Source: Vulcanimicrobiota bacterium (GTDB lineage Bacteria; Vulcanimicrobiota; Xenobia; Xenobiales; JADMJV01). Taken from it: a stretch of 64,000 bases of DNA. The notes under the pieces are model-generated. The model saw only the letters and a program-made list of their open reading frames with translations. It did not search any database and was not told the DNA's origin. A program made the position numbers and the translations under genes. Location of the stretch: contig JAHBVR010000006.1 in the NCBI GenBank assembly GCA_019637395.1, positions 248,001 to 312,000 on the forward strand, in the 5' to 3' direction. This document shows positions 9,669-62,400 of the stretch, piece after piece; the first letter of the stretch is position 1; every line of letters starts with the position of its first letter.

Positions 9669-9739
9669 CTGAGATGTGCTTCTGGCTCGGTGAGGCCAGA
9701 TCCTCGATCATGACGATGAGTGACCGTGGGAGGTTTAGG

Positions 9740-44700: not shown

Positions 44701-45305
44701 AAGCGACTGCGGTCCCAGGCGACGGTGGCTCCACCCCGACGTCCCAAAGCCGTTTTGGCCGCCGGCGCCTGCGCGGCCAGTTGGGCAAAGAAGGCTTCTT
44801 CGCCCATTTTGCCCATGAGATTGCGCGCATCCTCAAACAGCTTCTCCCCTCGGTAAAAGGCCGGAACCGGCGCGCCTGGATGCTGTTCTGCGATGGTGCG
44901 GGCATAGCCACCCAGGATCGCGCTTTCCATCGAGCTGGCACCAATCATGTGGAAAGCCAGCAAAAGCAGCTTGCGCTCGCGCAGAGCACTGAAGTTGAGG
45001 GTCACCGAGGCCAGGTCCGGGTGACCCCAGGCCTTGGGGTTGCCCTTGAGCAAGAGATTGAGCACGGCCATAAAGTGAGATTTACCGGAGCCGAAGCTGC
45101 CGTGCAGAAAAGCCGCCTGGCTCTTGCCTTGCACCAGCGAATTTTGCACCAGGGACAAAGCCTTCTCATACTGCCGCTTGAGCTGGGCCGTGACCACGTA
45201 CTGGTCCAGCGTTTCTTCCGGCCGTTCAATCCCCTCCGTCAGTTTGATGACGAACTCGTTGGCGTAGATGCGCTCGGGGATGTTGATGAGGTCTTTGATC
45301 AGCAT
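41709..45305 (-). CDS. pglY: BREX type 2 ATPase PglY
   Basis: About 1,198 aa from the ATG at 45305; the frame is open to 45419 but the family begins as here (MLIKDLINIPERIYANEFVIKLTEG). The P-loop is FLHGSFGSGKSHFMAVL (about residues 67-83). FHMIGASSMESAILGGY and the HPGAPVPAFYRGEKL segment are strongly PglY-like rather than BrxC-like. DGIVLFLDELILWLA is the likely Walker B. BREX ATPases of this class are required for phage restriction. Divergent from the IetA-like gene; 150 bases between them must hold both promoters. Confidence 0.88.
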   Translation of the reverse strand: MLIKDLINIPERIYANEFVIKLTEGIERPEETLDQYVVTAQLKRQYEKALSLVQNSLVQGKSQAAFLHGSFGSGKSHFMAVLNLLLKGNPKAWGHPDLASVTLNFSALRERKLLLLAFHMIGASSMESAILGGYARTIAEQHPGAPVPAFYRGEKLFEDARNLMGKMGEEAFFAQLAAQAPAAKTALGRRGGATVAWDRSRFEEAAGAAPGHPQRQQLVSALLSSYFTGYSDVQRDNQESYLPFDQALEVLSQHARSLGYDGIVLFLDELILWLANMSSNLHFVHGEIQKLVKLVEAEHSDRPAPIISIVARQRDLKDLIGESLSGFEQFNFHDQIKHFEKRFDTINLEDANLPEIIEKRILKPKSEAARTQLHDQFDRLKLNPNIRDILAHNYDLDSCRRVYPFSPALIDTLVAVSSLLQRNRTAIRILMELLVDQQESLSVGQLIPVGDLFDLVSGNYEPYDDSVRRGFESAKRILQERFAPMLEDSEGNPVATQATDLRLIKTILLAALVPEVPALRKLTPQKLAALNHGTLKSPIAGRESALVLTKLKNWQTNIGELRVDPDSEEISLNLTTVDLEKILEGARTQDNAGQRKGYLRRLLFQMLKIDQDAQANMTVTYDLVWRGTKRSFEVQYLNIREKSNLRELQADQFPKLILDYPFDEEGCHPSDDLVKLEAYRSQHPETRTLIWLPFFLSKRTLTELGRLIMIEYILTGDRLTAFLSHLAPTDRPSAKALLENQRSALQERMRQALEMAYGILKAEPGILDESDQKQLPADKQLQSLHAAFQPRMPAVSNLEQALREILAKELEAHYPGHPAFPVDKEISLDAVRKVWKEVKETCKTDDQRLEIPDKTMRDRLREVAQPLLLGKMGETHFLLNDHWRNKFEQEMARHQISGPVRVERLQEWMEQPRPMGLPARLKALIIYTFAEQTQRQLVRQGLALREFEADLAADVELCPMELPTDEVWSRAWERARLLLPDLYPLNCTTANVELLSQRVGEAIQPRRQALLDLPAKLRQLCQATQVDPAQSPRLSHSRLAADLVNLLDTKDARERVEQLARARWSDVPEELAAFVRGAPAMLSSLSQENLEMLAELPQLPSGEDLLHEMQEAMQRSEQAQPLGPVVELGRKQVFNLIRSRPQTPPSVAPAPARAKRLKAGQLKSASQAEAMAELRKILELLEDPKVRLSLNYEVWQEP

Positions 45306-45469
45306 GGCCGAGACTACGTCATTTGCGCCGCAGGCCCTACCTGGACTTATCGCGACAAACTCCGTCGCGGCGGAGGCTAGAATACGTGCATGGCATCCAA
45401 ACAGAAGTTCTATTTTCACGCAGGCCAGCTACAATCAAGGGAAGTCGGCCGATTTGAATGAAGGATCTC

Positions 45470-46486
45470 ATGAATCGAGGAGAAGGGCCCGGTCCCGACA
45501 TGGCCAGCGCTGAACAACTGAAGGCTCTTATTTTGAGCCACGCGGAGGGCAATGAGACCCGATTCTATCGGGTTGCGTTGCAAGTTGCTGCCCATCACGC
45601 TCGCCTAGGCCACGAAGCGGTCGCCAAAGAGCTAAGGGAAGCGGTGGGAACTGCTCAGAAGAGGAGCCAGACGCCTTCGCGTAAGCCTATCCCCATTGCA
45701 CGTCCGTCTGGGGCCCTGGAGGAGCTGCTCAAAGCGAGTTACCCGAACGCCAGGCTGAATGACTTGATTATGCCTAACCAGAGTCTCCTCAGCCTGCAAC
45801 GAATTCTCAAAGAGCACAGACGCAGCAGTGAACTTATCAAGCACGGACTGCGGCCGCGCCGGAAACTACTCTTCTTTGGTCCGCCTGGTACCGGCAAAAC
45901 AGCTACCGCTCACGCCCTGGCCGGCGAGCTGCAGCTACCGCTTTTTGTGGTCCGGTTTGAAGGCTTGATCACTCGATATATGGGCGAGACGGCCGCAAAA
46001 CTGAGCCTGATCTTTCAGGCAATGAACGATACCTGCGGCGTGTATTTCTTTGATGAATTTGACGCCATCGGGAGCCAGCGCTCTTCGAAGAACGATGTTG
46101 GGGAGATTCGCAGAGTCCTGAACAGCTTTTTGCAGTTTATTGAAGAAGATGAATCGCAGAGCCTGCTTATCGCCGCCACCAACCACGGGGAAATGCTCGA
46201 CAAAGCTTTGTTCCGAAGATTTGACGACGTCATCTCGTACGAACTGCCCAGTCTCGAACAACTCACCGAGACCCTGAAGCGCTGCCTGGAACCTTTCGGA
46301 GCGACGGACCTGGACTGGCCAAACCTGGCCCACGAGGCGCAAGGGCTGAGCTACGCTGATGTCATCCGTGCTTGCGAGGATACCGCCAAAGATATGATCT
46401 TAGAAGACCGCGAAACTCTGAGCTCAGACACACTCTTGCAAACACTGCAGATGCGAAAACACTCTCAACGCGAATTCGGTAAGTAA
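45470..46486 (+). CDS. ietA: AAA+ ATPase, IetA-like
   Basis: About 338 aa. ATG 45470 has AAGGA just upstream; ATGs at 45458 and 45500 are alternatives. After a helical N-terminal domain (~100 residues) comes Walker A FFGPPGTGKTATAHALAG, Walker B YFFDEFDAIGSQR, sensor 1 LLIAATNHGEML, and the arginine-finger-like KALFRRFDD. The next gene, 6 bases on, is a subtilase: this ATPase-S8 pairing is that of IetAS, described on Agrobacterium Ti plasmids as an addiction/exclusion module and later as an antiviral system. The mechanism is not known in detail. Confidence 0.8.
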   Translation: MNRGEGPGPDMASAEQLKALILSHAEGNETRFYRVALQVAAHHARLGHEAVAKELREAVGTAQKRSQTPSRKPIPIARPSGALEELLKASYPNARLNDLIMPNQSLLSLQRILKEHRRSSELIKHGLRPRRKLLFFGPPGTGKTATAHALAGELQLPLFVVRFEGLITRYMGETAAKLSLIFQAMNDTCGVYFFDEFDAIGSQRSSKNDVGEIRRVLNSFLQFIEEDESQSLLIAATNHGEMLDKALFRRFDDVISYELPSLEQLTETLKRCLEPFGATDLDWPNLAHEAQGLSYADVIRACEDTAKDMILEDRETLSSDTLLQTLQMRKHSQREFGK

Positions 46487-46492
46487 GGGTAA

Positions 46493-48979
46493 TTGATGGG
46501 GAGCCAGTTACCGCATTTATTCATAACTCAAGGCAGCCAATCTTTTCCCTACACTTACCCTGGTGGCGGCGGGTCTGGCGGACGCCGCCTGCCGACCCGA
46601 GACCCGGTTAAACACGCTGCCAAGCTTCGGGGAGACCTGAAATCAGTCCAGCTCACCCAAGACACCATAGAGAAGGAACGGGCCCTGTTTCAGATTGAGG
46701 CCGAAGCCAGCCAAATTAATTTTGACCTCGATCCCAACAAGGGATTTAAGCCAGAATCCCTTGAGAACGCTACTGCTGGAATCGCATTGTCGCTGATTCA
46801 CACGAGAGAAGACGGCGCTGGGCACGCAATAGTTCGAGTTCCGAAGGGGGAGGTCACTACCTTTGTTCGGAAACTCGAGCAGTACGAGGACCCCACTCAG
46901 CAGACCCCAGCAGGCAAGCCAAAACATCAACCTCTCTTTGCGTGCGTCTCAGGGATAAGGCCTCCGACGATTCGGGACTTCTGGACAGGTCCAGAGGATG
47001 AATTTCCCACCGAGGAAAAAGTGTATCACTGGGAGGTCTGGGTCAGGCGTGATATAGGGGCAACCCATCTTAGAAACCAGGCGAATCGGCTGAGCCTCAC
47101 AATTGGCCAACAGACATTGACCTTCCCTGACCGCGAGGTTGTTCTCGCGAGGGCCACCATCCAGGCAATGACGAATCTGCTCCGACTCGTCGACTCGATT
47201 ACCGAACTACGGCCCCCCAACCTGGCACGAACCTTTCTGGAAATGAGACCGAAAGAACAGACGGATTGGATTGAAGATTTGCTCTTAAGGTCCCATCCGC
47301 TACCGACCCGGGCTCGGGTCTGTTTGCTCGATACAGGTCTCGACTATGGACACCCGCTACTTGCGCCAGCCATCGAAGAAGAGTCAGTGCTCGCCTACAA
47401 CCCGAGCTGGGGAAAACATGACCACGGGGGCCACGGCACCTTGATGGCAGGTTTGATTGTCTATGGTGAGCATCTCGGTACGCATCTGGAGTCCAATGGA
47501 GCTGTGCCCATCGAAATCACTTTAGAATCTGTCAAAATTTTGCCCCCGCCACCCGCCGAGAATGAACCTGCCCTCTACGGCGAGATCACTAAAAGCTGCG
47601 TTGCCTTGGTGGAGGCTCAGAGCGCGGAACAGCGGGTCTTTTGCCTGGCCGTGACGGCCAACCCCAGCCCGACTGGTGAACCCAGTTCTTGGTCAGCAGC
47701 AGTCGACCAGATCTGCTCAGGAGCCGAGGAACCCGATGACGTCACCCGGCTGGTCTTCATCTCCGCGGGAAACTCGGATTGGAACCACGGGAATTATGCC
47801 TATCCCGAGTGGAACCACGAGCTTTCTCCTATTCAGGAGCCGGCTCAAGCCTGGAATGCAGTGACGGTTGGCTCCTGCACCTACTTCCACGGGCTCATTG
47901 AAGGTTACCCCAACTACGCCTCTGTGGCCAGCTACGGCGACCTGAGTCCCTTTAGCTCGACTTCCGTCCCTTCCTGTGACGGCGTCTGGGCCTCCCAACC
48001 AGACATCGTCTTTGAGGGCGGCAATTTGCTGTTGCATCCCGAGGGGCTCAGGGAGGTTCCACCAGAGTTCGCTCTGCTCAGCACTCGTATGCGTCTTGGC
48101 GGCTTTGCCGGCTCTGCACTTCTGGAAATCATGTATGAAACCAGTGCATCGACCGCACTTGCCAGTCATTTCGCCGCCAAACTAATGGCTGAATACCCCG
48201 AGGCCAAACCCGAGACCATTCGTGGCCTGATGATTCATTCGGCCCGCTGGTCCGAGGCTATGCTCGAGTCCTTTCCCGAAGATACGGGCAGAACTCGTGT
48301 GCGTAAGCGCCAAGCCTGTTTCGGCATGGGGGTGCCCGATCTGGAACGAGCGCGTTATAGCCAAAGGAACGCTCTGACCCTGGTGGTAGAGCGAGAAATT
48401 CAGCCATTCACGAACGACGGAAAAACGAACGAACTTCATCTACACGATATTCCCTGGCCCACCCAGGTCTTGGAGTCGCTAGAGGCGACCCCCGTCGAGC
48501 TCCGTGTGACCCTGTCCTACTTCATTGAACCCAACCCTGGAAGCAGAGGATGGAAAGGGCGATACCGCTATGCGTCCCATGGCTTGCGCTTCGAAGTTTG
48601 CACAGCCTCAGATGATGAGGTGAGTTTCGCGAAGCGGATCAACAAAGCGGCGCGCGAAGAAGGCGAGACGGCTGGGAGTTCGTCTGACGTTGGCGAGTGG
48701 ACGATAGGACCCGACGCCAGACATCGCGGGTCGGTGCACAGCGACATCTGGAAAGGCACCGCCCGCGACCTGGCCGCCAAGCATCTGGTTGCAGTCTACC
48801 CGGCCAAAGGCTGGTGGTCAGAGCGTACGGCACTCGGACGCCAGGAGAGCAAAGCCTGGTATTCGCTGATCATCTCGTTGGAGACGCCCCCGGTGGTGGG
48901 GGCCGCCGAAATTGACATCTACTCGGCCGTGGCCGAGGTGGTGACCGAGGTAGAGGTCGATTGGGACCCGGGCGAATAG
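46493..48979 (+). CDS. ietS: S8 subtilase, IetS-like
   Basis: 828 aa, no signal peptide, so a cytoplasmic protease. N-terminal ~240 residues are a domain of unknown fold; then the catalytic Asp in ARVCLLDTGLDYGHPLL (about 280), His in HDHGGHGTLMAGLIV (about 314), oxyanion Asn in FISAGNSDWNHG and Ser in YETSASTALASHFAAKL (about 551). The usual GTS before the Ser reads ETS. A beta-rich C-terminal domain of about 230 residues follows. Six bases after ietA, and it ends 4 bases from the convergent membrane-protein gene. The ATPase presumably controls protease activity; substrates are unknown. Confidence 0.82.
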   Translation: MMGSQLPHLFITQGSQSFPYTYPGGGGSGGRRLPTRDPVKHAAKLRGDLKSVQLTQDTIEKERALFQIEAEASQINFDLDPNKGFKPESLENATAGIALSLIHTREDGAGHAIVRVPKGEVTTFVRKLEQYEDPTQQTPAGKPKHQPLFACVSGIRPPTIRDFWTGPEDEFPTEEKVYHWEVWVRRDIGATHLRNQANRLSLTIGQQTLTFPDREVVLARATIQAMTNLLRLVDSITELRPPNLARTFLEMRPKEQTDWIEDLLLRSHPLPTRARVCLLDTGLDYGHPLLAPAIEEESVLAYNPSWGKHDHGGHGTLMAGLIVYGEHLGTHLESNGAVPIEITLESVKILPPPPAENEPALYGEITKSCVALVEAQSAEQRVFCLAVTANPSPTGEPSSWSAAVDQICSGAEEPDDVTRLVFISAGNSDWNHGNYAYPEWNHELSPIQEPAQAWNAVTVGSCTYFHGLIEGYPNYASVASYGDLSPFSSTSVPSCDGVWASQPDIVFEGGNLLLHPEGLREVPPEFALLSTRMRLGGFAGSALLEIMYETSASTALASHFAAKLMAEYPEAKPETIRGLMIHSARWSEAMLESFPEDTGRTRVRKRQACFGMGVPDLERARYSQRNALTLVVEREIQPFTNDGKTNELHLHDIPWPTQVLESLEATPVELRVTLSYFIEPNPGSRGWKGRYRYASHGLRFEVCTASDDEVSFAKRINKAAREEGETAGSSSDVGEWTIGPDARHRGSVHSDIWKGTARDLAAKHLVAVYPAKGWWSERTALGRQESKAWYSLIISLETPPVVGAAEIDIYSAVAEVVTEVEVDWDPGE

Positions 48980-48983
48980 GCGC

Positions 48984-50132
48984 TCATTGAGCCTTCTCAA
49001 CCAGTTTTTCCAACGCTTCCTCATGGGTCTCGCCGAACTCCTCGATGTATCCGCGAAGTTCTTGGTCGGTAGTCGCATTGTGCAGGTCGAAGAGGCCGTA
49101 TGTTTCGACTGTTCCAACAATCTTGTCGCCCTCGTCGACGGTGCCTGAATAGAGTTCGATCACTCCGAAGCCCGTCGATGTCTCGACCATGCAATAGTCT
49201 CCGAGAACCTTCTCGACAATTGCCTCTCCGTTGTCTGGTACCGGCACACCCCGGGGTTGGGGCACAAAGTTGAAATCGGGTTGTCGAGGGATTTCTCGGG
49301 AAGGCTGGTGCGCAACTTGAGCGGGAGCTGATAACCGATTGCGATACATTTGCTCCAGCTCCCGATAGTTCTTTTGGTCCTTCAGCCTCCTGGCCTGGCC
49401 AATCAGCACCAGCGCCTGCTTCTCGTCGCCTGAGATGGCGGTGGCCACAGACCCGATCATCAGGGCCCGAGAAATCTGCTCGTTGGTCCCGCCAAAATCC
49501 TTAAACAGAGTTCGGGCGCGCTCCGATTTCGACCGAGCCTGTTCTAGGTCTTCCCCTTTACCCTGGTAGCCGCGAATCAGGTGGCCGGCCTCGCTGAGCA
49601 GTTGCTCCGCTTCCGTCCGGCGTTTTCGCGAGCGTTCCAGTCGCAAAGTCGAAAGTAGGCTGCGGTACTTGGGATTGCCAGGAGCCCGATGAACACAGGA
49701 GACCATTCGGGTGATTGCCCCTGACAAGTCTCCAGCTTTATAACGGCAAGTGGCCACCACGGAATCGGCCTCGGCCAGGATCAAAGGATCCTTGCTGCCG
49801 CAGAGCTCTTGGAAAGCGGCAACTTTTGCGAGCTGCTCTGCTCCACCAACATCGCCCTGAGCAGCTTTCTGCTTGGCATCGGCCAGTAATCTCGCAGAAG
49901 TCGCTGTTGGTTCAGAGGCCATCGTCTGAGCCGAATTCGAAGCTTCAGTGTTGACAACAGGATTGGTATGATACGGTAACGGCCGAGGCGAGTCCCGAGA
50001 AGTCCAGGCTAGCAGAACACCACAAACGACCGCCAGGATGAGCGTTGCTCCAAGCGCTTTAGCAAAAAAACTATCCGACCGAGTCCGCTGACTTGCTACA
50101 GGATAAGTTCTTTCAAAAAACTCTTGGCTCAA
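48984..50132 (-). CDS. Membrane-anchored helical-repeat protein linked to the silent pglX cassette
   Basis: 382 aa from a TTG at 50132 that overlaps the stop of the truncated pglX copy (TTGA), so it is translated only if that cassette is transcribed. One membrane helix (FFAKALGATLILAVVCGVLLAW, shortened: about residues 23-43) separates a short cytoplasmic N-terminus from a large outside domain. That domain has TPR-like helix pairs (AGDLSGAITRMVSCVHRAPGNP and SGDEKQALVLIGQARRL) and a C-terminal beta region (VLGDYCMVETSTGFGVIEL). Not a standard BREX protein. Function unknown. Confidence 0.7.
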   Translation of the reverse strand: MSQEFFERTYPVASQRTRSDSFFAKALGATLILAVVCGVLLAWTSRDSPRPLPYHTNPVVNTEASNSAQTMASEPTATSARLLADAKQKAAQGDVGGAEQLAKVAAFQELCGSKDPLILAEADSVVATCRYKAGDLSGAITRMVSCVHRAPGNPKYRSLLSTLRLERSRKRRTEAEQLLSEAGHLIRGYQGKGEDLEQARSKSERARTLFKDFGGTNEQISRALMIGSVATAISGDEKQALVLIGQARRLKDQKNYRELEQMYRNRLSAPAQVAHQPSREIPRQPDFNFVPQPRGVPVPDNGEAIVEKVLGDYCMVETSTGFGVIELYSGTVDEGDKIVGTVETYGLFDLHNATTDQELRGYIEEFGETHEEALEKLVEKAQ

Positions 50133-52864
50133 GTAGGGCTTTTTCTGGTTTTACGGGCAGCGCCCTTTTGGGCGGGTCGCCAGTTGCTCAAATCTTTGGA
50201 AGGCAAGTCGAGTTCACGAAGTTGCTCGCTCAAGAAGGACTCAAAATAGTCCCCCATCCGCTCACCGCTGTGGGGGTCGACCTCATTGTGCCATTGTTTG
50301 AGCCAGGGCAGGAGTTCGGCCAAGCCGGCCAGGAGCGGGGTGAGCTGGTCTTTTTCCCAGCCGTCCTGCTCGCGACGCTCCAAAGCGTACCCGGCGAGGG
50401 CCTGGGCACGCTGCAGGTAGTTCCAGCCGGCCCAGCCCAGCACCACAGAACCGTCGGCCTCCCGCTCGGCACCAGGGTAGCAGATGAAGCGCTCCTTGGG
50501 CACGTCCAATTTGCCGCGCAGGCTCCAATACTCGGGGCGAAGGAAGTCTTTCTGACCGAATTTGGGCGGAACGGGAATGTCACCAACGTTTTCGCCCGCG
50601 TCTTCCCGGCGCTGCAGTTCCCAGGTGCGCTCCCAGTCGGCCCGAATTCGCAAACCCGCCTCGCTGTAGCGCAACGCGGCCACATAAGCGACGGCTTGGG
50701 TCTGCACCAGTTTTTGGATGCTTTCTCCGGCCTCGAAATCGTTGGTGCCCAGATAGATCTGCAGCACCTGCTGGAAGTCCCCATCGTGGGCGAGCTGGTC
50801 GGCCAATTGTTGGACGGATTGTAAATGGTCGGATTTTTGCAGGGTGGACTCGATGCGGTCCTGCAGCCAGATCGTCAGGGCGTCCTTCAGACGCTCTTCC
50901 CAAGGACGCTGCTGCCAGCGCCGCTTGTGCTCCGGCCTTTCCAGGAGGGCTACTTCGGGATGGTTGGCGATCAGCTCCAGGCGTTTTTCCACCGTGGCCC
51001 GGTAGTCGGCAGCCCAATGGCCCGGCAGCTCCGTGATGGGGGTGGAGCCGTGGCGGCTGAACCATGTGGTTTCCTCTTCTGACCGCGCCATGGCGATCTC
51101 GAAGGCCCGCTCCCCCAACTGTAGCGGAGGCGGGTCGGTTGCGATGGGGGAGACGTCGAGGATGCCGTAGAGTTGGTAGGACAGCCAGTCCAGTTCTTCC
51201 TGGAGGGCGACCATTTTCTGGCGGACTTGGCGCTGCTGCGCCTGCTTTTCGGGAAGATTCCAGAGGCCGGGGGGGAGTTCATGAATGAAACCGGCGGCTT
51301 CCAAAGCGCTGTGCTCGGCGGCAAGTTGATCGAGCTGGCTGGCCAGAGTGAGCGTTTGCTGGTGATTTAGGGGAATGGGAAAATTCTGCAATTTGCTGCC
51401 ATCGCGCTCCAGTCGATCCTCCCACGGCGTCTTGATCACCCGGGCGCCCTCGGTTCCCACGTAATCCCCACCCTTGGAAAAGCCTACTTGGCGGACCCAA
51501 AAGTTTCCGACCGAACTATTGAGGATGCCAATAAGCGCCAAGTGCGCATCCTCAGAGGTGCCGTTTGGCAATTTAATAACCGGCGCCGTGCGATTAAAAA
51601 CTTTACCGCCCCGATCCAGGACGAAATGGTTGTGTGTGGCCACGAAGGCGAAGACGATTGAGAGAGCGGTTTTATATTTCGATGCAACCCAGCGATACCA
51701 ACCCCACCAAGGCTCGCCTATTTCAGCCTTTGTTTTGTTTCCAAAAGTTTTAATGTTGGCAAGGCTGTTGCGGTACGTCCAGAGGTAGCTTGCTATCAGG
51801 GGCACCGTCTGTAAAGAAGATAACTCGAGGCTAGAATCGTAGGGGACCAAGACTTGCTCGAACGGCTGGATAACGAAGTCGCGAACAGTGTCTCCCTCCA
51901 CGAGTCCTTGAATATGCTGCTTTGGTATCCCATGGCGTCCGAGTACTCCAAACGGGGCGGCGAAGACATCATCCTGGCCAGTGAAACTCGCGAATCCGAT
52001 ACTGTCGCACAATGTTCCAAGGCAACCTTGGGCGGCTGACTCGATCTTTTCCTTGAGCTCACTGGCTCCACCGCCACCGATACTCCACGGATGCTTGGCA
52101 AAAGTGGCCCTATCAAACTCGGTCACGCTCACAAACGCACTGGATTCCCCCGGTCGCTCCAGAAGCTCCAAAATCGACCGCCATACCAGCCCCTGGGCCG
52201 GATCGGCCGGTGTGGAAGGCTCTCCGCGGATGCCCAGCACGGCCCGCACCTTGTCGGACACGGGGGCCCGATTCCGGCCCAGCAGGATAATGGTCGGAGT
52301 CCCGTGGCCCGGAATGTAGGCTCCTGATGTGTCGATTACATGTGTCAGGTCCACCCGTGGGAAAAACTCCTCAATCACCCGGGACCCAAACTCCCGCTTC
52401 ATAAACGAGTTGGCCGTGATCATCCCCACAAATCCCGCCCGCTGCTGCCCCTTGCCCTCCACTGCCAGATCCCAGAATTTCTCTTTGAACGGCACGGCGA
52501 GCGAATACTTCATATAAGCCGTGCGATATCGGCTCCGCACCTCATTGTTGTGCGCCTTGTCTCGTGCCGTGATGTACGGTGGGTTGCCCACCACCGCTTC
52601 ATAGCGCTGGGTCAGAATCTGGGAAGCATCTTCAAAGTCGCCAGCGGCAAACGCATCCGGCAGCCAGTCGGACAGCTCCTGGACCCCCCAACCTTTGGCT
52701 GAGCAAATCGCGTTGCCGTGCAGTAACGAGTCGCCAGTGGCCACCCGAACCTTGACGTCGGGCATTTCGCGCAATCGAGACAGCCCGCAGGCCTTCACAA
52801 AGGCGATCACCAGGCGAAAACGGGCAATGGCCACGGCGAAAGGGTTGATATCGACTCCGTGCAC
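50129..52864 (-). CDS. pglX: Silent, N-terminally truncated pglX cassette
   Basis: A 911-codon frame matching residues ~268-1179 of the complete PglX at 54359-57898. Homology continues upstream to about 52938, where an in-frame TGA precedes it. It keeps the catalytic NPPY block (AVVGNPPYITARDK) but lacks the SAM-binding motif (DPTCGSGHF), the start region and a promoter, so alone it cannot be an active methylase. Two segments differ wholly from the full copy: about 52040-51690 and 51540-51370, the expected target-recognition parts. Elsewhere most base changes are synonymous (for example GTCGATATCAAC versus GTCGACATCAAT), so selection has kept it intact. I read it as a storage cassette, not a dead gene. 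Confidence 0.85.
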   Translation of the reverse strand: MHGVDINPFAVAIARFRLVIAFVKACGLSRLREMPDVKVRVATGDSLLHGNAICSAKGWGVQELSDWLPDAFAAGDFEDASQILTQRYEAVVGNPPYITARDKAHNNEVRSRYRTAYMKYSLAVPFKEKFWDLAVEGKGQQRAGFVGMITANSFMKREFGSRVIEEFFPRVDLTHVIDTSGAYIPGHGTPTIILLGRNRAPVSDKVRAVLGIRGEPSTPADPAQGLVWRSILELLERPGESSAFVSVTEFDRATFAKHPWSIGGGGASELKEKIESAAQGCLGTLCDSIGFASFTGQDDVFAAPFGVLGRHGIPKQHIQGLVEGDTVRDFVIQPFEQVLVPYDSSLELSSLQTVPLIASYLWTYRNSLANIKTFGNKTKAEIGEPWWGWYRWVASKYKTALSIVFAFVATHNHFVLDRGGKVFNRTAPVIKLPNGTSEDAHLALIGILNSSVGNFWVRQVGFSKGGDYVGTEGARVIKTPWEDRLERDGSKLQNFPIPLNHQQTLTLASQLDQLAAEHSALEAAGFIHELPPGLWNLPEKQAQQRQVRQKMVALQEELDWLSYQLYGILDVSPIATDPPPLQLGERAFEIAMARSEEETTWFSRHGSTPITELPGHWAADYRATVEKRLELIANHPEVALLERPEHKRRWQQRPWEERLKDALTIWLQDRIESTLQKSDHLQSVQQLADQLAHDGDFQQVLQIYLGTNDFEAGESIQKLVQTQAVAYVAALRYSEAGLRIRADWERTWELQRREDAGENVGDIPVPPKFGQKDFLRPEYWSLRGKLDVPKERFICYPGAEREADGSVVLGWAGWNYLQRAQALAGYALERREQDGWEKDQLTPLLAGLAELLPWLKQWHNEVDPHSGERMGDYFESFLSEQLRELDLPSKDLSNWRPAQKGAARKTRKSPT

Positions 52865-52938
52865 CGCCTCCAGCGCCCGCCTGGCCAGCGCCCGGGCGTT
52901 GCTAATCGAACAGGCGTTCTGGCCTGAGCAACCGGCGT
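52788..52938 (-). repeat. Left inverted-repeat end of the pglX switch
   Basis: The inner end of the inverted pglX homology. It contains an 18-base block (52921-52938) matching 55131-55148 on the other strand with one mismatch, and a 32-base block (52788-52819) identical, by eye, to 55232-55263 in inverted orientation. Either could be the crossover site. Confidence 0.7.
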
Positions 52939-53330
52939 GTCCACCCGTCCATCACAAATTCAGGCAGGCCCCAGCCTCAGTCGCTGGTAATTGGAGGGCT
53001 TCTTCCCCCGGCGGTCAAAGAGGCCCGATTGTGAAGGGCATAGCTGGGCTTGAACTTCCAGGCTTTACCCCCAAATCAAAAAGATGGGCCAGCTGCCAGG
53101 GTCCCCTCCTAATAGAGAGGAAGCTCAGCACCAGCCCATTGCAACATTACAATCGGTCTCTGGCCGGCCCCACCGGGGTGGGGGGCACGGCGAGGGTCGG
53201 TTCTTGCTCCAGACGACGGCTCTCGGGCCCGCCTCACCGGGCGGCCTAGCTCAACCGGGAGAAGTCCTGAAAGCTCGCAGATTATCAGGAGAAGCCAGGT
53301 GGCCGACGCATTGGCTCCACTTGTGAAATA
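52939..53330. other. Gene-free spacer inside the invertible segment
   Basis: 392 bases between the silent cassette and the recombinase with no supported gene. A GC-rich hairpin, CCCCACC-GG-GGTGGGG (53168-53183), and other purine-rich stretches are present. It may act as a recombination enhancer, a terminator for the recombinase transcript, or simply a spacer. Confidence 0.45.
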
Positions 53331-54197
53331 CTATTCAAGCTCGTCCAGCACCGCCACTGTTGCGCGGAGCTGCTCAATGCCGATGTGACAGTAGGTCATG
53401 GTCTGCGTCGGAGAGGCGTGCCCCAGCAGGCTTTGCACTTCGAAGACGGGTTTCCCGGCGCGAATGAGGTCGCAGGCGAAGGTGCGTCGGAGATCTCGCC
53501 GTTGCACTCCCTGGATACCCGCCTCCCGACAAGCTTTTCGCCACACGTGTTTGACGTGGCTCCCGGCCACCACGAGCCGGTCAGGATTGCGCTGGTCGGG
53601 CCAGAAGACATAGCCAGAGCCACATTCGGTGGCCCATGCGAGCTGAGTCGCGATGATGGTTCGGGCGCCTTTGCAGAGTGGAACGAGGCGACTCCCGGTC
53701 TTTCCGTCTTCCGGGATTTCTAGAATGTCACCCTGTATGTGCTTCTGCTGGATCCGAACCTGCTCGCCGATGCGGCATCCGGTCAGCAGGGCAAACTTCT
53801 CGGTCCTCCAGTGTGCAGCCCCTCGGCGAAAAAGCTTGAGGTAAACCTTCTCCAAAGCTCGCTCGTTCTCGCGAGTCAAGATCTGGTGGCGCCTGTGGGG
53901 TTTCATTCTCACTCGAACGCGCGCCAACGGACTGTAGGGAAGTCGTTCTTCGTCAACCGCCAAATTGTAGGCTCTCTGGAGCAGCCTAATTTCGTGCAGA
54001 ACCGTGCTGGCCGAATGGTCACGCCGTCTTTGGATGGCCCATTCCTCGACTTCGCGGCGATTGAGGCTTGTGGCCGCGCGGTCTCCCCAAAGTGCGGTAA
54101 ACATGCGCGTATGACATTCACAGGCGTGCCAGGCGGCAGGCCGCGTACGCCGATGGATATCGTCCAAATTGTACTCCAGCAGTTGCGATATGGTCAT
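53331..54197 (-). CDS. Tyrosine recombinase, probable invertase of the pglX switch
   Basis: 288 aa. ATG 54197 has AAGGAGGA (complement of 54206-54213) 8 bases upstream. An N-terminal SAM-like arm (TISQLLEYNLDDIHRR ... LQRAYNLAVDE) precedes the catalytic domain: Arg in LLTGCRIGEQV (about 141), Lys in PEDGKTGSR (about 165), Arg in RDLRRTFAC (the usual His two places before is Arg), His in LLGHASPTQT and nucleophile Tyr in MTYCHIG (about 267). It lies between inverted pglX copies and is divergent from the full pglX, so inverting them is the likely job, as reported for BREX loci in lactobacilli. Confidence 0.88.
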   Translation of the reverse strand: MTISQLLEYNLDDIHRRTRPAAWHACECHTRMFTALWGDRAATSLNRREVEEWAIQRRRDHSASTVLHEIRLLQRAYNLAVDEERLPYSPLARVRVRMKPHRRHQILTRENERALEKVYLKLFRRGAAHWRTEKFALLTGCRIGEQVRIQQKHIQGDILEIPEDGKTGSRLVPLCKGARTIIATQLAWATECGSGYVFWPDQRNPDRLVVAGSHVKHVWRKACREAGIQGVQRRDLRRTFACDLIRAGKPVFEVQSLLGHASPTQTMTYCHIGIEQLRATVAVLDELE

Positions 54198-54358
54198 GAC
54201 AAATGTCCTCCTTGTTCTTTAGATAGGATAGCAAGTGGGTGGAGAGGACGGTCGGCACGATTTGCTTTTGGAGCCTGAGGGTCAGGGCACCATGCTGTCC
54301 AGAAACGGGAGCGGCTGTATACGGGAAATGCCGGTTGTGGGTTGAATAACCGGCGCCT

Positions 54359-57300
54359 ATGACCAGGACCATGCCCACACCACAACCGGCCAAGACCCAA
54401 TCTGACCTTATCAGGCTTGTCCGCGCTCTCCAAGAAGATCTGCGCCAACGCTGCGAGGAATACGCGGACGTTGCCGCGCCTTTGCGTGCTGAATACTCCG
54501 CAGCTCTCGCAGCCCAGAGCACTCAGGAAACCTATCAGGCCTGGAGCAGCAACTATCTCAACCAGGTAGCGGTAGCCTGGGTGCTGGCCGGTGTCTTTGT
54601 CCGGTATTTGGAGGACAACGACCTGATCGAGGAGCGCTGGTTGGCGGGCACCGATAACCGGCGTGGTGAGCCTCGGGAGCGCTACACCGCATTTTTCCGC
54701 AAGCATCCGGAACTGAGCGACCGTGAGTATTTTCACGACATCTTCGACCAAGTGGCCGAACTGCCGGGCTGCCACGACCTCTTTGCCCGAGATCGTAACC
54801 CTTTATGGAAAGTCGGCATCTCGGGTGATGGAGCTAAGGTTCTAAGGGAATTTTTTGCTGAGGTGGATGCAAATACGGGTGGCCTACTACGCACCTTTGA
54901 GGGAGATACCCGCTTTTTGGGTGACCTGTACCAGAACCTATCGGAAGAGGCACAGAAGAAATATGCCCTGCTTCAAACGCCTGAGTTCGTCGAGGAATTT
55001 ATCCTGGATCGGACGCTGGAGCCCGCTCTGGCAGAGTTTGGCCTGGAGAATGTAAAACTGGTCGACCCCACGTGTGGGTCCGGACACTTCTTATTGGGTG
55101 CCTTCCATCGTCTCTTTCGTCGCTGGGAAAACGCCGGTTACTCAGGCCTGAACTCCAGGGTTTGGGCTAAGCGGGCTCTGGAGGCGGTTCACGGGGTCGA
55201 CATCAATCCCTTTGCGGTTGCCATTGCCCGCTTTCGCCTGGTGATCGCCTTTGTGAAGGCCTGTGAGCTATCCCGATTGCGCGAGATGCCCAACGTCAAG
55301 GTTCGGGTGGCCACCGGGGACTCGCTGCTTCACGGCAACACTATCTGCTCGGCCAAGGGCTGGGGAGTTCAGGAATTGTCGGACTGGCTGCCGGACGCGT
55401 TTGCCGCCAGCGATTTCGAAGATGCCTCGCAGATCTTGAGCCAGCGTTATGAAGCGGTGGTGGGCAATCCGCCGTACATCACGGCGCGAGACAAGGCCCA
55501 TAATAGCGAGGTTCGGAGTCGATATCGCACGGCCTATATGAAGTATTCGCTGGCCGTGCCGTTCAAGGAAAAATTCTGGGACCTGGCGGTCGAAGGCAAG
55601 GGCAAACAGCGAGCAGGGTTCGTGGGAATGATCACGGCCAACTCGTTCATGAAGAGAGAGTTTGGCTCGCGGGTGATCGAGGAGTTTTTTCCCCGGGTGG
55701 ACCTGACGCACGTGATCGACACTTCCGGAGCCTACATTCCCGGGCACGGCACTCCAACGGTTATCCTCATGGGCCGGAATCGGGCTCCCGTGACCGAGAC
55801 GGTGCGAGCGGTGCTGGGCATTCGGGGCGAACCTTCGACGCCAGCGGACCCCGCTCAGGGGCTGGTGTGGCGCTCGATTGTGGAGCTGCTGGAACGACCG
55901 GGGGAATCCAGCGCGTTTGTAAGTGTGACCGAGTTCGATAGAACGACCTTCGCCGAACACCCGTGGAGCATCGGGGGTGGTGGCGCGAGTGAACTAAAGG
56001 ACAGAATTGAGGGGAACAGCCCACAGCGACTCACGGGAATTTGCCACGAGGTTGGTGTGCTCGGAATGACGAATGCTGACGAGATTTTTCTTCTCCCCAA
56101 AGAAGTCCCCAACCGTCTCAACTTGGCGGAATTCTTTGTCCCCCTTGCTCTTGGCGATGAGCTTCGTGACTACCAGTATTTGGGTGATACTTCGGTGTTT
56201 CTGCCCTATCGGGACGAGGAGCTGTTGTCTATCTGTGATATAGAACCGGTACTTCCATATTTGTGGTCGTTCAGAACTATTTTAGGCAGCAGGGTGACTT
56301 TCTCCAGGAAAACCTATTTTGAGGAAGGCCTTCCTTGGTGGAAATGGCATCAAATCGCTCTCTATCGCCTGAGAACGCCACTAACCATCGCTTTCGCTTT
56401 TGTAGCCACCCATAATCACTTCGTCTTGGACCGGGGCGGCAAGGTCTTCAACCGTAGTGCGCCGGTTATTAAATTGCCAAACGGCGCTTCGGAAGAGGAG
56501 CACCTGGCATTGTTGGGGCTTCTGAACAGTGCAGCGGTCTGTTTCTGGCTGAAACAGATTTGCCATAACAAGGGAAGCACCGTCGATAAGGCGGGAGCGC
56601 GACAAACGACGATAGAATTTGAGAACTTTTGGGAGATTTCCGGCACCCAACTTTTGGAATGCCCCATCCCACGCCTACATCACCAGACGCTACCCCTCGC
56701 CAGCCAGGTCGACCGGCTGGCCTCCGAGCACAGCGCCCTGGACCCGGGCAATATAATGCGCAAATCCCCGCCCGGCCAGTGGAATCTTCCAAAAAAGCAG
56801 GCGCAGCAGGACCAGATCCGCCAACAAATGATCGCACTCCAAGAAGAGCTGGACTGGCTGTCTTACCAGCTCTACAGCATCCTGGACCCAGCCCCCCTGT
56901 CCGCCGATCCCCCTCCGCTGCAGCTCGGAGAGCGGGCCTTCGAAATTGCCCTGGCCCGCAGTGGTGAAGAAACCACCTGGTTCAGCCGCCACGGTTCCAC
57001 TCCGATCAAAGAACTGCCGGCCCACTGGCCTGCCGATTATCGGGCCACCGTGGAAAAACGTCTCGACCTGATCGCCAATAATCCCGAAATAGCCCTCCTG
57101 GAGAAGCCCGAGCACAAGCGGCGGTGGCAGCAGCGCCCTTGGGAAGAGCGATTGAAGGAGGCCCTCACGACCTGGCTGCAGGACCGCATCGAAGTCGCTG
57201 TCCAAAAATCGGATCATCTACAATCCGTGCAACAATTGGCCGACCAGCTTGCCCACGATAGTGACTTCCAGCAGGCGCTGCAGATTCACCTCGGCACCAA

Positions 57301-57898
57301 CGACTATGAGGCGGGAGAGAGCATCTACAAGCTGGTGCAGCCTCAGGCCGTGCCCTACCTGGCCGCCTTGCGCTACAGCGAATCCGGGCTGCGCATTCGG
57401 GTGGACTGGGAGCACACCTGGGATTTGCAGAGGCTGGAAGATGCGGGAGAAACTGTGGCCAACATCCCGGTCCCACCCAAATACGGCCAGAAGGACTTCC
57501 TTCGTTCTGAATACTGGAGCCTCCGGGGTAAACTCGACGTGCCCAAGGAACGGTTCATCTCCTACCTGGGCGCGGAACGCGAAGCTGACGCATCGCTGGT
57601 GATCGGTTGGGCGGGGTGGAACCATCTGCAACGGGCTCAGGCTCTGGCCTCTTACGCGCTGGAGCGGCGCGAACTGGACGGTTGGGAGAAAGACCGACTG
57701 ATCCCGCTGCTCGCGGGCCTGGCCGAACTGCTGCCCTGGCTGAAGCAATGGCATAACCAGGTTGACCCGGACACCGGAGAACGGATGGCTGACTATTTCG
57801 AGGCCTTTCTGCAGGAGCAATTGCGCGAGCTCTCGGCTACGCCGTCCGAGCTGGCTACGTGGCGCCCGGTGGCCAGGATGGCTCGTTCCAAGAAGTAA
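54359..57898 (+). CDS. pglX: BREX type 2 adenine-specific DNA methyltransferase PglX (expressed copy)
   Basis: 1,179 aa, ATG 54359 (or ATG 54371; no strong ribosome-binding site). PglX methylates host DNA so that BREX spares it. SAM-binding motif VDPTCGSGHFLLG (about 235-246), AVHGVDINPFAVAIARFR, and catalytic NPPY in VVGNPPYITARDK (about 370). Two variable target-recognition segments lie at about residues 545-680 and 715-775, divided by the conserved block THNHFVLDRGGKVFN. A conserved C-terminal helical domain (YQLYSILDPAPL ... YGQKDFLRSEYWSLRGKLD) follows. It runs against the direction of pglW, pglY and pglZ. An ASCH gene follows 38 bases downstream. Confidence 0.92.
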   Translation: MTRTMPTPQPAKTQSDLIRLVRALQEDLRQRCEEYADVAAPLRAEYSAALAAQSTQETYQAWSSNYLNQVAVAWVLAGVFVRYLEDNDLIEERWLAGTDNRRGEPRERYTAFFRKHPELSDREYFHDIFDQVAELPGCHDLFARDRNPLWKVGISGDGAKVLREFFAEVDANTGGLLRTFEGDTRFLGDLYQNLSEEAQKKYALLQTPEFVEEFILDRTLEPALAEFGLENVKLVDPTCGSGHFLLGAFHRLFRRWENAGYSGLNSRVWAKRALEAVHGVDINPFAVAIARFRLVIAFVKACELSRLREMPNVKVRVATGDSLLHGNTICSAKGWGVQELSDWLPDAFAASDFEDASQILSQRYEAVVGNPPYITARDKAHNSEVRSRYRTAYMKYSLAVPFKEKFWDLAVEGKGKQRAGFVGMITANSFMKREFGSRVIEEFFPRVDLTHVIDTSGAYIPGHGTPTVILMGRNRAPVTETVRAVLGIRGEPSTPADPAQGLVWRSIVELLERPGESSAFVSVTEFDRTTFAEHPWSIGGGGASELKDRIEGNSPQRLTGICHEVGVLGMTNADEIFLLPKEVPNRLNLAEFFVPLALGDELRDYQYLGDTSVFLPYRDEELLSICDIEPVLPYLWSFRTILGSRVTFSRKTYFEEGLPWWKWHQIALYRLRTPLTIAFAFVATHNHFVLDRGGKVFNRSAPVIKLPNGASEEEHLALLGLLNSAAVCFWLKQICHNKGSTVDKAGARQTTIEFENFWEISGTQLLECPIPRLHHQTLPLASQVDRLASEHSALDPGNIMRKSPPGQWNLPKKQAQQDQIRQQMIALQEELDWLSYQLYSILDPAPLSADPPPLQLGERAFEIALARSGEETTWFSRHGSTPIKELPAHWPADYRATVEKRLDLIANNPEIALLEKPEHKRRWQQRPWEERLKEALTTWLQDRIEVAVQKSDHLQSVQQLADQLAHDSDFQQALQIHLGTNDYEAGESIYKLVQPQAVPYLAALRYSESGLRIRVDWEHTWDLQRLEDAGETVANIPVPPKYGQKDFLRSEYWSLRGKLDVPKERFISYLGAEREADASLVIGWAGWNHLQRAQALASYALERRELDGWEKDRLIPLLAGLAELLPWLKQWHNQVDPDTGERMADYFEAFLQEQLRELSATPSELATWRPVARMARSKK
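55131..55263 (+). repeat. Right inverted-repeat end of the pglX switch
   Basis: Counterpart of 52788-52938. It contains the 18-base block 55131-55148 (one mismatch) and the 32-base identical block 55232-55263. The first lies just after the SAM-motif codons, so a crossover here would leave that motif always with the promoter side. Confidence 0.7.
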
Positions 57899-58369: not shown

Positions 58370-59440
58370 TCAATCGCCCACCGAAAGCCAGACCATCTGC
58401 AAATCCTGAGATGCTCGGACGCAAAGGGGCTCACAGTAATTGGAACAAACGACGCGGGACCAGGGCTTCAGAGCGGCAGCTTTGACCCCGGCCAACTTCG
58501 TCAAGAGCCATTCGCCAACGACGCTCTCAATCGCTCGATGAAGCTTCACAATCGTCATCTGGTCGCGGGCGACCAGTTCCTCCTCAAATCGGGCCAACAA
58601 CTCCTCCGTATTCATTTCATTGAGTTTGGTCTGCAGCTCTTTAAGATTAGCGCTCAGACCACCCAGGTGATCCATCGCACTCAATTCCTTCAGTAACTCC
58701 AGAAAGTAGTCTTCCAAAGCCTTCCGTGGTGGCCCTTTGGGCGCCCTCAAACGAAGGAGCAGACTGCTGCCGATGTAGGTTGCAGCCACGCAGTAACGGA
58801 TCCAGTCTTTCATAACCGCCAGGTCTGTGGTTATGGCCAGGAAACTGGGAACGAGTTCTTCCGGCCCCTGGGCCGCGAAAGCCATGCTGGTAGGGATTGG
58901 CAGTCGACCGCAAATTCTCGCTCGTTCCGACTCACCACTGGAGGCAGGAGGGCCACCCTTTGTGGGTTGCGCCGAAATCGTCTTCTGCCCAGACCCGCTC
59001 CAAGTCAACAGGCCGTGCTGCTCCATGGCCACCTTGATATTGTCGGGTAAATCGTCGAAGCGAAGCCTGACACGAGCGAGAAACGTCTCCAGTTTGTCAG
59101 GCGAACAAGTCCACAAGGTGCTCCAAATGCCAAAGCGAGCAACGTTTGTAACCATGGACCAAAGGACGCCAACCAATCCGGACAAACACCCACCCATTTT
59201 GACCGTCGAAAGTGAGAAGCATTTTCGACAGAAGAGCGACTCGGCTTTATCCCCGGAGGAGTGGATGAAGGGATGTTTTACGAAAGTGACGCCCTCTCGC
59301 AGCAAGGGGCTTAATGTCACGTAACCCACGGTTCCACAGGCCGGACAGACCCTCTGCACATGTTCTTTGTGGCCTCGTTCCCATGAATCCTCGAACTGGG
59401 GGCGTTGAATAGACGCTACTGGGCCGTTTTTGTAACGCAT
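58370..59440 (-). CDS. Uncharacterised protein in the Pgl operon, 356 aa
   Basis: Lies 9 bases after pglW on the same strand, so in the same operon. ATG 59440. The N-terminus has a zinc-ribbon-like pair: VCPACGTVGY and, about 40 residues on, LFCRKCFS. A hydrophobic stretch follows (GGCLSGLVGVLWSMVTNVA), possibly a membrane helix. The C-terminal half is helical (YFLELLKELSAMDHLGG ... LARFEEELVARDQMTIVKL). I do not recognise a family, and standard BREX type 2 lists contain no such protein. It may be a zinc-binding accessory or cargo gene. Confidence 0.7.
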   Translation of the reverse strand: MRYKNGPVASIQRPQFEDSWERGHKEHVQRVCPACGTVGYVTLSPLLREGVTFVKHPFIHSSGDKAESLFCRKCFSLSTVKMGGCLSGLVGVLWSMVTNVARFGIWSTLWTCSPDKLETFLARVRLRFDDLPDNIKVAMEQHGLLTWSGSGQKTISAQPTKGGPPASSGESERARICGRLPIPTSMAFAAQGPEELVPSFLAITTDLAVMKDWIRYCVAATYIGSSLLLRLRAPKGPPRKALEDYFLELLKELSAMDHLGGLSANLKELQTKLNEMNTEELLARFEEELVARDQMTIVKLHRAIESVVGEWLLTKLAGVKAAALKPWSRVVCSNYCEPLCVRASQDLQMVWLSVGD

Positions 59441-59449
59441 TCGTCTCCT

Positions 59450-62400
59450 TTACTTGAGCCAGCCGGCCGCGCTCCACTCCAGGGGCCGGGTGGCCGGGGG
59501 CATGGGCAGTGGCTGGTTATCGATGGTGGGCAAGCCTTCGGAATAGGGTGCGAGTAGCCACAGGGTTTGGGGTCCGCCGGGGCGGCCGGCACGGTCGATT
59601 ATGTTCTGAACCAGATCGAGCAGGCCGAAGCGGGACCACAGGCTGAAGCGCTTGAGGGCCACCACCGGCTCCAGTTGCGCGACCACGTGCCCGCCCGCCT
59701 CACGAGCCAGATCTTTGAGACCCTGCCAGTCCTCGGGGGAGTCGGCGCCCAGCTGGTCGGCCGCCCAGAGATCGGCTTCGTCAATCTGTTCCGCTGCGGC
59801 CATCGAGAGGAGTTGCTCGACCAGGCGGTCCTCCAGCGAGACGGTGGGAATGTCAAAGGTTTGGCGCAGCCACTCCTCGGCCTGAAGGAGTTCATGGGAG
59901 CGCACCTTGATGACCTGAGGCTCACCGCCGCGCAGGGCGTCGCGCAGGCGGGCCTCGGCTTCGGTGAAGGGCATGCCCGTGACCGCTCCCAGGCTGCTGC
60001 GGCTGCGCCCGCTGTGCGAGGTGGCCAGGGTGCTGCGAAAGCGGTGTTTGCTATCATCCCAGCGCATCATTAGGTTGAGCTCGGCAAAAAGCGCGTCGAT
60101 GGCCGGCTCCTCGGCGGGCAAGGGGGCGGCTTCTGGGTAGCGAGTTTGCACCAATTCCTGGAGTTGCACCAGGGTGAGCTCGCGACCGGCCAGCAAGCCC
60201 GAGACCAGACGGAGGGACTGTCCCGGAGGCATGCCCACCGGGTAAAGCTCGCCTCGGCTGGAGAGTCGGGCTCGCTGAGCCAGGGCCACAATCAAGCGCA
60301 GCAGGCGGCCCTCGGTCAGGGCCTGCTCCGACTGCACCAGCTGAGACAGTTCCTGGAGCGTGCGCGACAGAGATGGTATGGGTTCTTGCGTGACCAGTTC
60401 GTCAGCGCGTTGCGCGGCCTGCCAGAGGCGTTCGGCCTGGCCCAGGTCGGCGCACACCAAAGGCTGCCGGCCCAGCCGGACCAGGTCAAAGCGCGGTAGC
60501 GATTGCATGCCCTCCCGCTCCAACAAGGCGCGCAGCACTCCACGTGCGAGTCGGCGCCTGGGTTCGCGGCGAGTTTCCAGGGCTCCCCGCAAGGAAAGCA
60601 AGGTGTCGCAAAGCTCGTCCACTGTGGCGCCGCCGCCCATCTCGGTGATAGCCTGATCGAGGTCGTGCCCCAGTCCCTCCAACTCCGGGTGGCGGCCCCA
60701 TTGCTGGCGGGCCCTCAGGGTGACCTTGTTGGCATCCACTTTGGGGGGCGTGGAGGCCAGCCGCGCCGCCTCTAAAGGCAGCGGCCATTCTTGCTCCGCA
60801 GTGCCACAAAGATAGAGCTCGACCAGGCGAGCTTCCTCTGGTTTCGCCGGCAGAAGAGTTTGCAGCAGCGTTTCCAGGGCCTGTTCCGGCACGTGCTGGT
60901 AGGGCTGGGGGGCGCCCACCAACCGCTCCTTTAGAAGATCATAGAGGTCGCGCAGTTGTTGGCGGGTGAGTCCGCCCACATTGCTCAGGCGCAATAGCGT
61001 CGAGCGGGGCACTCCCATCAGGGCGCTGGCGGTGGTCAGACGCAGGCGATCAAAAACCTGCAGAAGCTGAGGATTGTGGGTCAGGCTGCTGAGAGCGGTC
61101 TCTCCCGGAACATGTTCGGGGATGGCGATAGCACTGGGGCTCTCGTCCAACTGGGCATTGGCAAAGAGCTCCCGCCAGGCGGAGCGCATGACGTTGGCGC
61201 TCTCAAAGCGTTGCTGAGCCTGGCGCTGAAACGCCTTCTTGAAGAATTCCTCGAAACGCTCGCGCAGGCTCGGTTCAAAGTCGCCGCTGGGAAACTGCAC
61301 CTCGATGGGGGAGGCCGCCGGGTTCACGCGGCCATCGCCCCATTGGGGCAGTCGCCCGGTGGCCATTTCATACAGCGTGACGGCCACCGCATAGCGTTCG
61401 GCAGCTTCGTCCCACGGTCGCTGGCTGGTGTGTAAAAAAGGATCGCGGTAGCCCGGTGTGCCGGCTTCCACTTTGCGCCGATCCTCGCGGGCCAGCGAGA
61501 AGTCGAAAAGCACCAGATGCAAATCTTGATTCTTGCCCAGGGGGCGCACGCCCAGGTTGGCCGGTTTAATGTCGCGATGAGCCATGCCCACATGCTCGAG
61601 ATGTTCCGCCAGTTCTAGCAGGTCGTCGCCGAATCGTTGCAGCAACTCCAGGCCCAGTACCCCGTCACGTCCCAGCCTCTCGGCCAGGGTCTCGGGGCCG
61701 GCGCTGCTCAACAGTAGAGCCTTTTTAACCCCTACCTGGGTAACAGCGCGTAACTCGACGATTTTGCGGTGGGAGAGCTTTTGCAGCACCTCGGATTCTT
61801 GCACCAGGCGCTCATCAGTCTGGCTGGGCAGGGGCACTTTGAGAACAAGCTCCTCGCCCTCTCCATTGCGTACCAAAAAAGCCACCGAGCTACTGCCCTG
61901 GCCCAGGCGGCGCAGCAACTGATGGCCAGGCAAAACCAGGTCACCGGGTTGAGCCGTGAAGGGATCGTGGCAGTCGTCCTGGGCCTCGTCCTGATGACGC
62001 CATTCGGTTTCGACTTCCGCCAGGCGCTGCAGAAATGCGTTGGCGCTCTCGGGGCGGAAGTAATGAACCGGATGGGTGAGATCGCGAATCAGCTGCACCA
62101 GCTTAGGCGGTGCCTGATCCAGAACCGCCAGAAGGTTCAAGCCCTCTTGTTGCAATAACTTCTCCTGAAGTTCGCTCTGATTGCTGGCCGGGTCCTGGCC
62201 GGTGAACAGGAAATAGCCCAGACAGCCGAGCGAAAACAAGTCGACCGAATGGTCGGCCTCGTTGGGAGCGGTCAGCATTTCCGGCGCCAGATAAGCGGTG
62301 GCCCGTTCTTCTACCCACTCCGCCAAATGGACGGTGCCACTGGTGCGCTCCTCGGCACTCACTGTCTGCCAGTTGATGACCTTGGCGTCGGGCGGGTCAT

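Follow-up and report, generated by a model that had tools for sequence, protein, structure and literature searches.

A BREX type 2 locus in a Vulcanimicrobiota bacterium very probably encodes a recombinase-driven specificity switch of its methyltransferase, PglX. The locus lies in a window of 64,000 nt (GCA_019637395.1, contig JAHBVR010000006.1, 248001-312000; assembly of 7.66 Mb), the stretch of DNA that we analysed and to which positions refer below. In the mechanism that we propose, a tyrosine recombinase would pair two inverted hinge sites, S1 and S2 (GCCGGTT-N11-AAC, with the centre TCAGGCC), and recombination between them would flip a 2.2-kb segment that holds the recombinase gene together with the promoter region of pglX and its first ~262 codons, to just past the SAM motif. 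The N-terminus would then be joined in frame either to body A (rightward, the present state) or to body B (leftward, toward pglW-pglY-pglZ). The two bodies share a catalytic core and a C-terminal domain and differ in their recognition segments, and a flip would change the motif that is methylated and sensed. Support for an N-terminal inversion that swaps specificity comes from the anatomy of the locus, the repeat at the edge of the homology, the in-frame products, selection on body B, the divergent recognition segments, and the membership of the locus in type 2. We counted against it the single orientation in the assembly, an Arg in box II of the recombinase, the mismatch of S1 and S2 at 4 of 25 positions, and the option that body B was truncated recently.

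The locus is BREX type 2, with a PglX above its curated cut-off (NF033451) and pglW, pglY, and pglZ in an operon. The pglW gene (NERD/Ser-Thr kinase; 59450-63445, -) scored 1034 bits against NF033442 (cut-off 990; PADLOC PDLC02512) and pglZ, the BREX-2 phosphatase (39265-41709, -), scored 453 bits against NF033446 (cut-off 200). The pglY/brxC ATPase gene (41709-45419, -) matched PADLOC PDLC02488 (E-value 0) and NF047891 (2e-262), the latter under its NCBIfam cut-off. These profile matches, with that of PglX, bore out the type 2 (PglW/PglY) membership proposed in a first-pass annotation of the sequence, and its description of the host as lipid A-making fits the presence of lpxA (20272-21108) and bamA (9674-12076). 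The contig also carries brxD and brxHI (PDLC02494 and PDLC02503), on the strand of the other genes and in canonical order, 73 kb past pglZ and outside the window (G000:C33:211.5-215.0 kb). The complete set of type 2 components is present, in an interrupted operon. The spacing of brxD and brxHI is what insertion of a large block into the type 2 operon would leave. Two ORFs flanking the pglX region, one of 356 aa between pglW and pglX copy A (58370-59440, -) and one of 382 aa overlapping the end of body B (48984-50132, -), had no PADLOC, Pfam, or NCBIfam match, and no homologues of either were found in the type 2 loci that we fetched.

Several neighbouring genes resemble other defence systems. 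An IetAS-like pair (45458-48979, +) lies between pglY and body B and consists of an AAA ATPase (IetA, 2e-73) and a subtilisin-like protease (IetS, 1.5e-37), both detected with PADLOC; in a same-order genome (G011), an ietA homologue and the large ORF that follows it sit between pglW and pglX. Directly upstream of pglW is a Druantia DruE3-like helicase of 1706 aa (L123:424-5544, -; PDLC00037, 1e-204); the BREX genes thus belong to a defence island. An 833-aa protein (34655-37156, +) with an ankyrin-repeat match is similar to the candidate defence model PDC-M72A (6e-43).

Two copies of pglX face each other at the locus. Copy A (54359-57898, +) is full length, with 1179 aa, 1509 bits against the NCBIfam profile BREX_2_MTaseX (NF033451; cut-off 400), a PADLOC match (PDLC02529), the SAM motif DPTCGSGHF at residue 236, and NPPY at residue 370. 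Body B (50129-52951, -) is N-terminally truncated and corresponds to BREX_2_MTaseX positions 269-1183. Its open frame begins shortly before the hinge site and runs for 940 codons to the C-terminus, with no stop or frameshift; counted from the first GTG it would encode 911 aa (50129-52864, -), and the frame reaches back to 52951. It is without the first ~258 residues, including DPTCGSGHF, and retains NPPY. The copies are arranged head to head, with a tyrosine recombinase between their facing 5' sides. The first-pass annotation was correct here in both coordinates and description, having noted a full pglX on the forward strand, a truncated pglX lacking the start and SAM motif on the reverse strand, and the recombinase between them. 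A genome-wide search found no further pglX pieces elsewhere in this genome.

The similarity of the two copies is unevenly distributed. Copy A and body B are ~84% identical in nucleotides and 93% in amino acids across the MTase core (an earlier estimate by eye was ~85%), and amino acid identity over the whole body (against residues 263-1176 of A) is 73-74%. The inverted homology falls in two arms of 861 and 1191 nt with 78-83% identity. Strong differences are confined to the recognition segments: in copy A, segment 1 (residues 552-671; 56012-56371, +) and segment 2 (residues 724-770; 56528-56668, +) have 29% and 33% amino acid identity to B, respectively, in agreement with the earlier view that the target-recognition segments are unrelated. 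The recognition segments of body B resemble those of a same-order relative, whereas those of copy A do not. The locus contains two inverted copies with divergent target-recognition segments. In its AF2 model, copy A is similar to CamA, M.BseCI, MmeI, and type 1 BrxX/PglX, which fits a single-chain methyltransferase with its recognition domain placed after the catalytic core. For type 1 PglX, specificity resides in the TRD (PMC11341690), and by analogy the choice of body would set the recognition segments and with them the methylated motif.

The edge of the homology coincides with a pair of related inverted sites. Hinge site S2 (GCCGGTTACTCAGGCCTGAACTCCA; 55133-55157, +) lies in copy A and codes for the loop AGYSGLN (residues 259-265), while hinge site S1 (GCCGGTTGCTCAGGCCAGAACGCCT; 52912-52936, -) marks the 5' boundary of body B and has the same 7-bp centre, TCAGGCC. 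The two sites differ at 4 of 25 positions and share a 21-bp inverted repeat, GCCGGTTRCTCAGGCCWGAAC (52916-52936, -, and 55133-55153, +), a pattern with exactly two matches in the window against 0.05 expected. Homology between A and B begins exactly at this repeat, after the SAM motif and before NPPY. Sites of this type cluster at the locus: the pattern GCCGGTT-N11-AAC has 29 matches in the 7.66-Mb assembly, four of them within 2.2 kb of the locus.

Inversion in silico at the centre TCAGGCC gave an in-frame pglX of 1193 codons on the minus strand, and the junction repeats preserved the reading frame in both orientations. The inner invertible segment so defined (52925-55144; 2220 bp) comprises a ~390-bp spacer, the recombinase gene, the intergenic region, and the first ~262 pglX codons. 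An invertible piece had been proposed earlier with a length of ~2.4 kb; the piece itself is supported, with a size of 2220 bp. The related proposal, that a fixed promoter and ~260 codons are joined to either body, agrees with our junction in the number of codons (~262) but needs correction in what moves: the promoter, N-terminus, and recombinase would move and both bodies are fixed, the reverse of the Lactobacillus geometry discussed below. We sought the alternative junction, N-terminus to B, in the assembly and found none; one orientation is present, and the genome has a single copy of the N-terminal end.

To tell a remnant of protein homology from a DNA site, we compared the hinge loop with that of 36 other type 2 PglX proteins in an alignment. 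The loop in these relatives mostly has the form WxxxE-PGxN, with a length of 17 residues in 30 proteins, 18 in five, and 16 in one. Only A and B have AG(Y/C)SG(L/Q)N there, and the sequence that follows it is unlike and of different length in the two, with extra residues in B. In the AF2 model the loop (residues 260-265; mean pLDDT 83.7) connects helices 243-259 and 266-275. Apparently, a DNA site has been placed in a tolerant loop of PglX, and A and B carry the same foreign sequence at this position.

This result bears on whether body B is simply a relic, that is, the remnant of an ancestral operon pglX that was left silent, and does not flip, after a second pglX (copy A) arrived with an integrase. 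Such a history would account for the single orientation seen in the assembly and for the ancestral direction kept by B, and an integrase beside a truncated gene can be the scar of an insertion. It does not, however, predict a non-native sequence that both hinges share at one position. We also found no integrated element, and no attachment repeats besides the hinge sites; B is open over its 940 codons, and its departures from conserved residues are not significantly above those of A. We thus regard a relic as quite improbable.

The gene for the tyrosine recombinase (53331-54197, -) is intact, encodes 288 aa, and lies within the invertible segment (Pfam Phage_integrase, 3e-17; NCBIfam Xer-like). 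Five of the six catalytic residues (Arg, Lys, Arg, His, and Tyr) could be aligned, and the box II His is replaced by Arg. The closest relative, with 37% identity, is in a genome of the same genus (G001, L117:9506-10417) and has the same box II Arg; we found no pglX nearby and no repeat of the hinge kind at its locus. The genes adjoining this relative are ORFs without a family match. For the present locus, we infer that the recombinase acts on S1 and S2, that cells exist in either state, and that the methylated motif changes between the states.

Between A and B, the MTase core (residues 268-551) has a Ks of 1.04 and a Ka of 0.033 (dN/dS 0.03), and the C-terminal domain has a Ka/Ks of 0.10, although a low dN/dS is also expected if B was truncated only recently. 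The changes are mostly synonymous outside the TRDs, as had been noted from the first reading. Among columns with conservation in 70% or more of the relatives, departures in the core numbered none in A only and one in B only, and those in the C-terminal part five in A only and 11 in B only (p = 0.21). Judged by these substitution patterns, body B is under strong purifying selection and not decayed relative to A, which argues that it is expressed, or was until recently, within a working protein.

The same divergence values speak to the role of B as a sequence archive, in which B would supply sequence to A by RecA-dependent gene conversion or by homologous recombination and the recombinase would be incidental. 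Long inverted homology (arms of 861 and 1191 nt) around divergent recognition cassettes suits this arrangement, and a 27-bp identical run at the S4 sites described below could be a conversion tract. With a core Ks of ~1 and few long identical tracts (the longest being 32 nt), however, there is no sign of recent conversion, and an archive leaves both the shared non-native hinge and the position of the recombinase unexplained. We find it scarcely credible.

The direction of the two copies relative to the operon provides a further line of evidence. Among 80 other type 2 loci, pglX was co-directional with pglW in all 70 loci with a match and with pglY in 62 of 62. Body B runs in the direction of the operon (pglW, pglY, and pglZ), while the present full-length copy A opposes it. 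By this comparison, flipping the N-terminal segment would bring back the gene arrangement usual in type 2. An on/off switch must be considered at this point, since pglX would be co-directional with pglY-pglZ in the B state and is not in the A state: one joined form alone would make a working PglX, and a flip would silence methylation or couple pglX to the operon and leave specificity aside. There is a precedent for on/off control of pglX in type 2, where phase variation in Streptomyces works through a G tract (PMC4365076). However, the catalytic core and C-terminal domain of both bodies are under purifying selection, and the promoter region travels with the N-terminus, so expression is expected in both states. 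These points make an on/off function unlikely, and a change of specificity remains our preferred reading.

The locus contains further sites of related architecture. Site S4A (GCCGGTTATTAAATTGCCAAACGGC; 56461-56485, +) separates the two recognition segments of copy A, where it encodes part of APVIKLPNG (residues 701-709), and S4B in body B (51560-51584, -) has the same 25 bp, or 27 bp with the flank. A palindrome, S3 (GCCGGTTGTGGGTTGAATAACCGGC; 54330-54354), is located 4 bp before the pglX start and is a perfect GCCGGTT-N11-AACCGGC, found as an exact match to the 7-11-7 pattern. GCCGGTT and the 11-bp spacer are common to S3, S4, and the hinge sites. The centre of S3 is unlike that of the other sites, and S3 is perhaps an operator bound by the recombinase, for autoregulation.

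We asked whether S4A and S4B might also be recombined, as an extension of the S1/S2 switch and not an alternative to it. Inversion of the putative outer segment (S4B-S4A, 51573-56472; 4900 bp) would be a 4.9-kb flip that swaps recognition segment 2 and the C-terminus. In silico, the outer inversion gave a pglX of 1185 codons and the inner and outer inversions together one of 1187 codons, so that the four predicted products (1179, 1193, 1185, and 1187 residues), representing the combinations A1-A2, B1-B2, A1-B2, and B1-A2, are all full length. The pair has the 7-11-7 architecture and GCCGGTT arms of the other sites, and GCCGGTT-N11-AANNGGC occurs at nine places genome-wide, three of which are in this 5-kb locus, although two of the three are homologous copies of each other. 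The centre, TAAATTG, is the same within the pair and unlike that of S1/S2, as mutually exclusive pairs should be. Nine codons here are identical in A and B, against 18 of 55 among flanking codons for the same residue (local chance ~4e-5); even so, a run of at least nine codons arose somewhere in the gene in 45% of whole-gene shuffles of synonymous identity. None of the 36 relatives has Asn708, and codon choice at the site is unusual, but the site falls in a conserved protein motif, APVIKLP. Moreover, the two recognition segments of B appear to have been inherited together, with no trace of a past outer inversion. The use of several IR1-like repeats by PsrA is a precedent in favour (PMC7096588).

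On balance, recombination at S4 is a real possibility that falls somewhat short of probable. The recombinase may, tentatively, use two nested and mutually exclusive site pairs with GCCGGTT arms (centres TCAGGCC and TAAATTG) to yield four PglX specificities from a single BREX type 2 operon. Such a system would mix two first and two second recognition segments as the promoter moves between two fixed bodies.

Recombinase-associated variation of pglX has a counterpart in type 1 BREX. An integrase separates a full from a partial PglX in Lactobacillus rhamnosus (GG, LRHMDP2/3; PMC7513527), in line with the precedent in lactobacilli cited in the first-pass annotation. That system is type 1 in a Gram-positive host, whereas ours is type 2. 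The geometry differs as well: read from the printed coordinates for GG (partial pglX 2158636-2160858, +; full pglX 2161973-2165527, -; PMC6256098), the copies there are tail to tail and the bodies would move, whereas the head-to-head copies here would have a moving promoter, N-terminus, and recombinase. In Streptococcus pneumoniae, PsrA flips hsdS (cod) through several IR1-like inverted repeats, and other invertible type I hsdS loci are known (PMC7096588, PMC7394358). As at our locus, a tyrosine recombinase lies by target-recognition genes, and recognition segments are exchanged through several pairs of related inverted repeats; what is shuffled there is HsdS, a separate subunit, whereas here a single-chain methyltransferase would be split between the SAM motif and NPPY. 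The Pgl system of Streptomyces coelicolor is of the same BREX type and has pglX as its variable element, but its phase variation is ascribed to G-tract length in pglX and acts as an on/off control, with no inversion or change of specificity described (PMC4365076). This kind of switch is therefore already known; new are the type 2 context, the moving N-terminus, the fixed bodies, and the possible second site pair.

Irregularities of pglX were reportedly first listed by Goldfarb et al. in 2015. Our own search found no second invertible type 2 pglX in about 100 loci (80 type 2 loci, ~15 from the phylum of Singulisphaera, and three from the order of Aromatoleum), in keeping with the earlier impression that the arrangement appears new in type 2. 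A sample of 149 genomes of the phylum, plasmids, and viral contigs likewise yielded no other such locus. An integrase-like ORF was present in three of the 80 type 2 loci, at a distance of several kb from pglX; none of the three has a second pglX copy. Split or partial pglX genes in four genomes (G770, G874, G933, and G857) and in Ca. Thiodictyon were same-strand interruptions, insertions, deletions, or contig ends, and none of them is an inversion. In a 2026 survey of BREX diversity covering 1309 type 2 taxa, the terms 'recombinase', 'integrase', and 'phase varia' are absent from the main text (PMC12839542).

The switch is directly testable by PCR and methylome sequencing. A sequence search of the PDB found only type 1 PglX/BrxX structures, and two natural PglX bodies on one N-terminus would provide material for mapping type 2 recognition. 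If the switch is real, it shows that a single-chain methyltransferase can be divided for shuffling at a point between SAM motif and catalytic motif. BREX type 2 defence could then reversibly change, within a clone, which DNA sequence marks 'self', and this would explain how populations survive phages already carrying the resident methylation.
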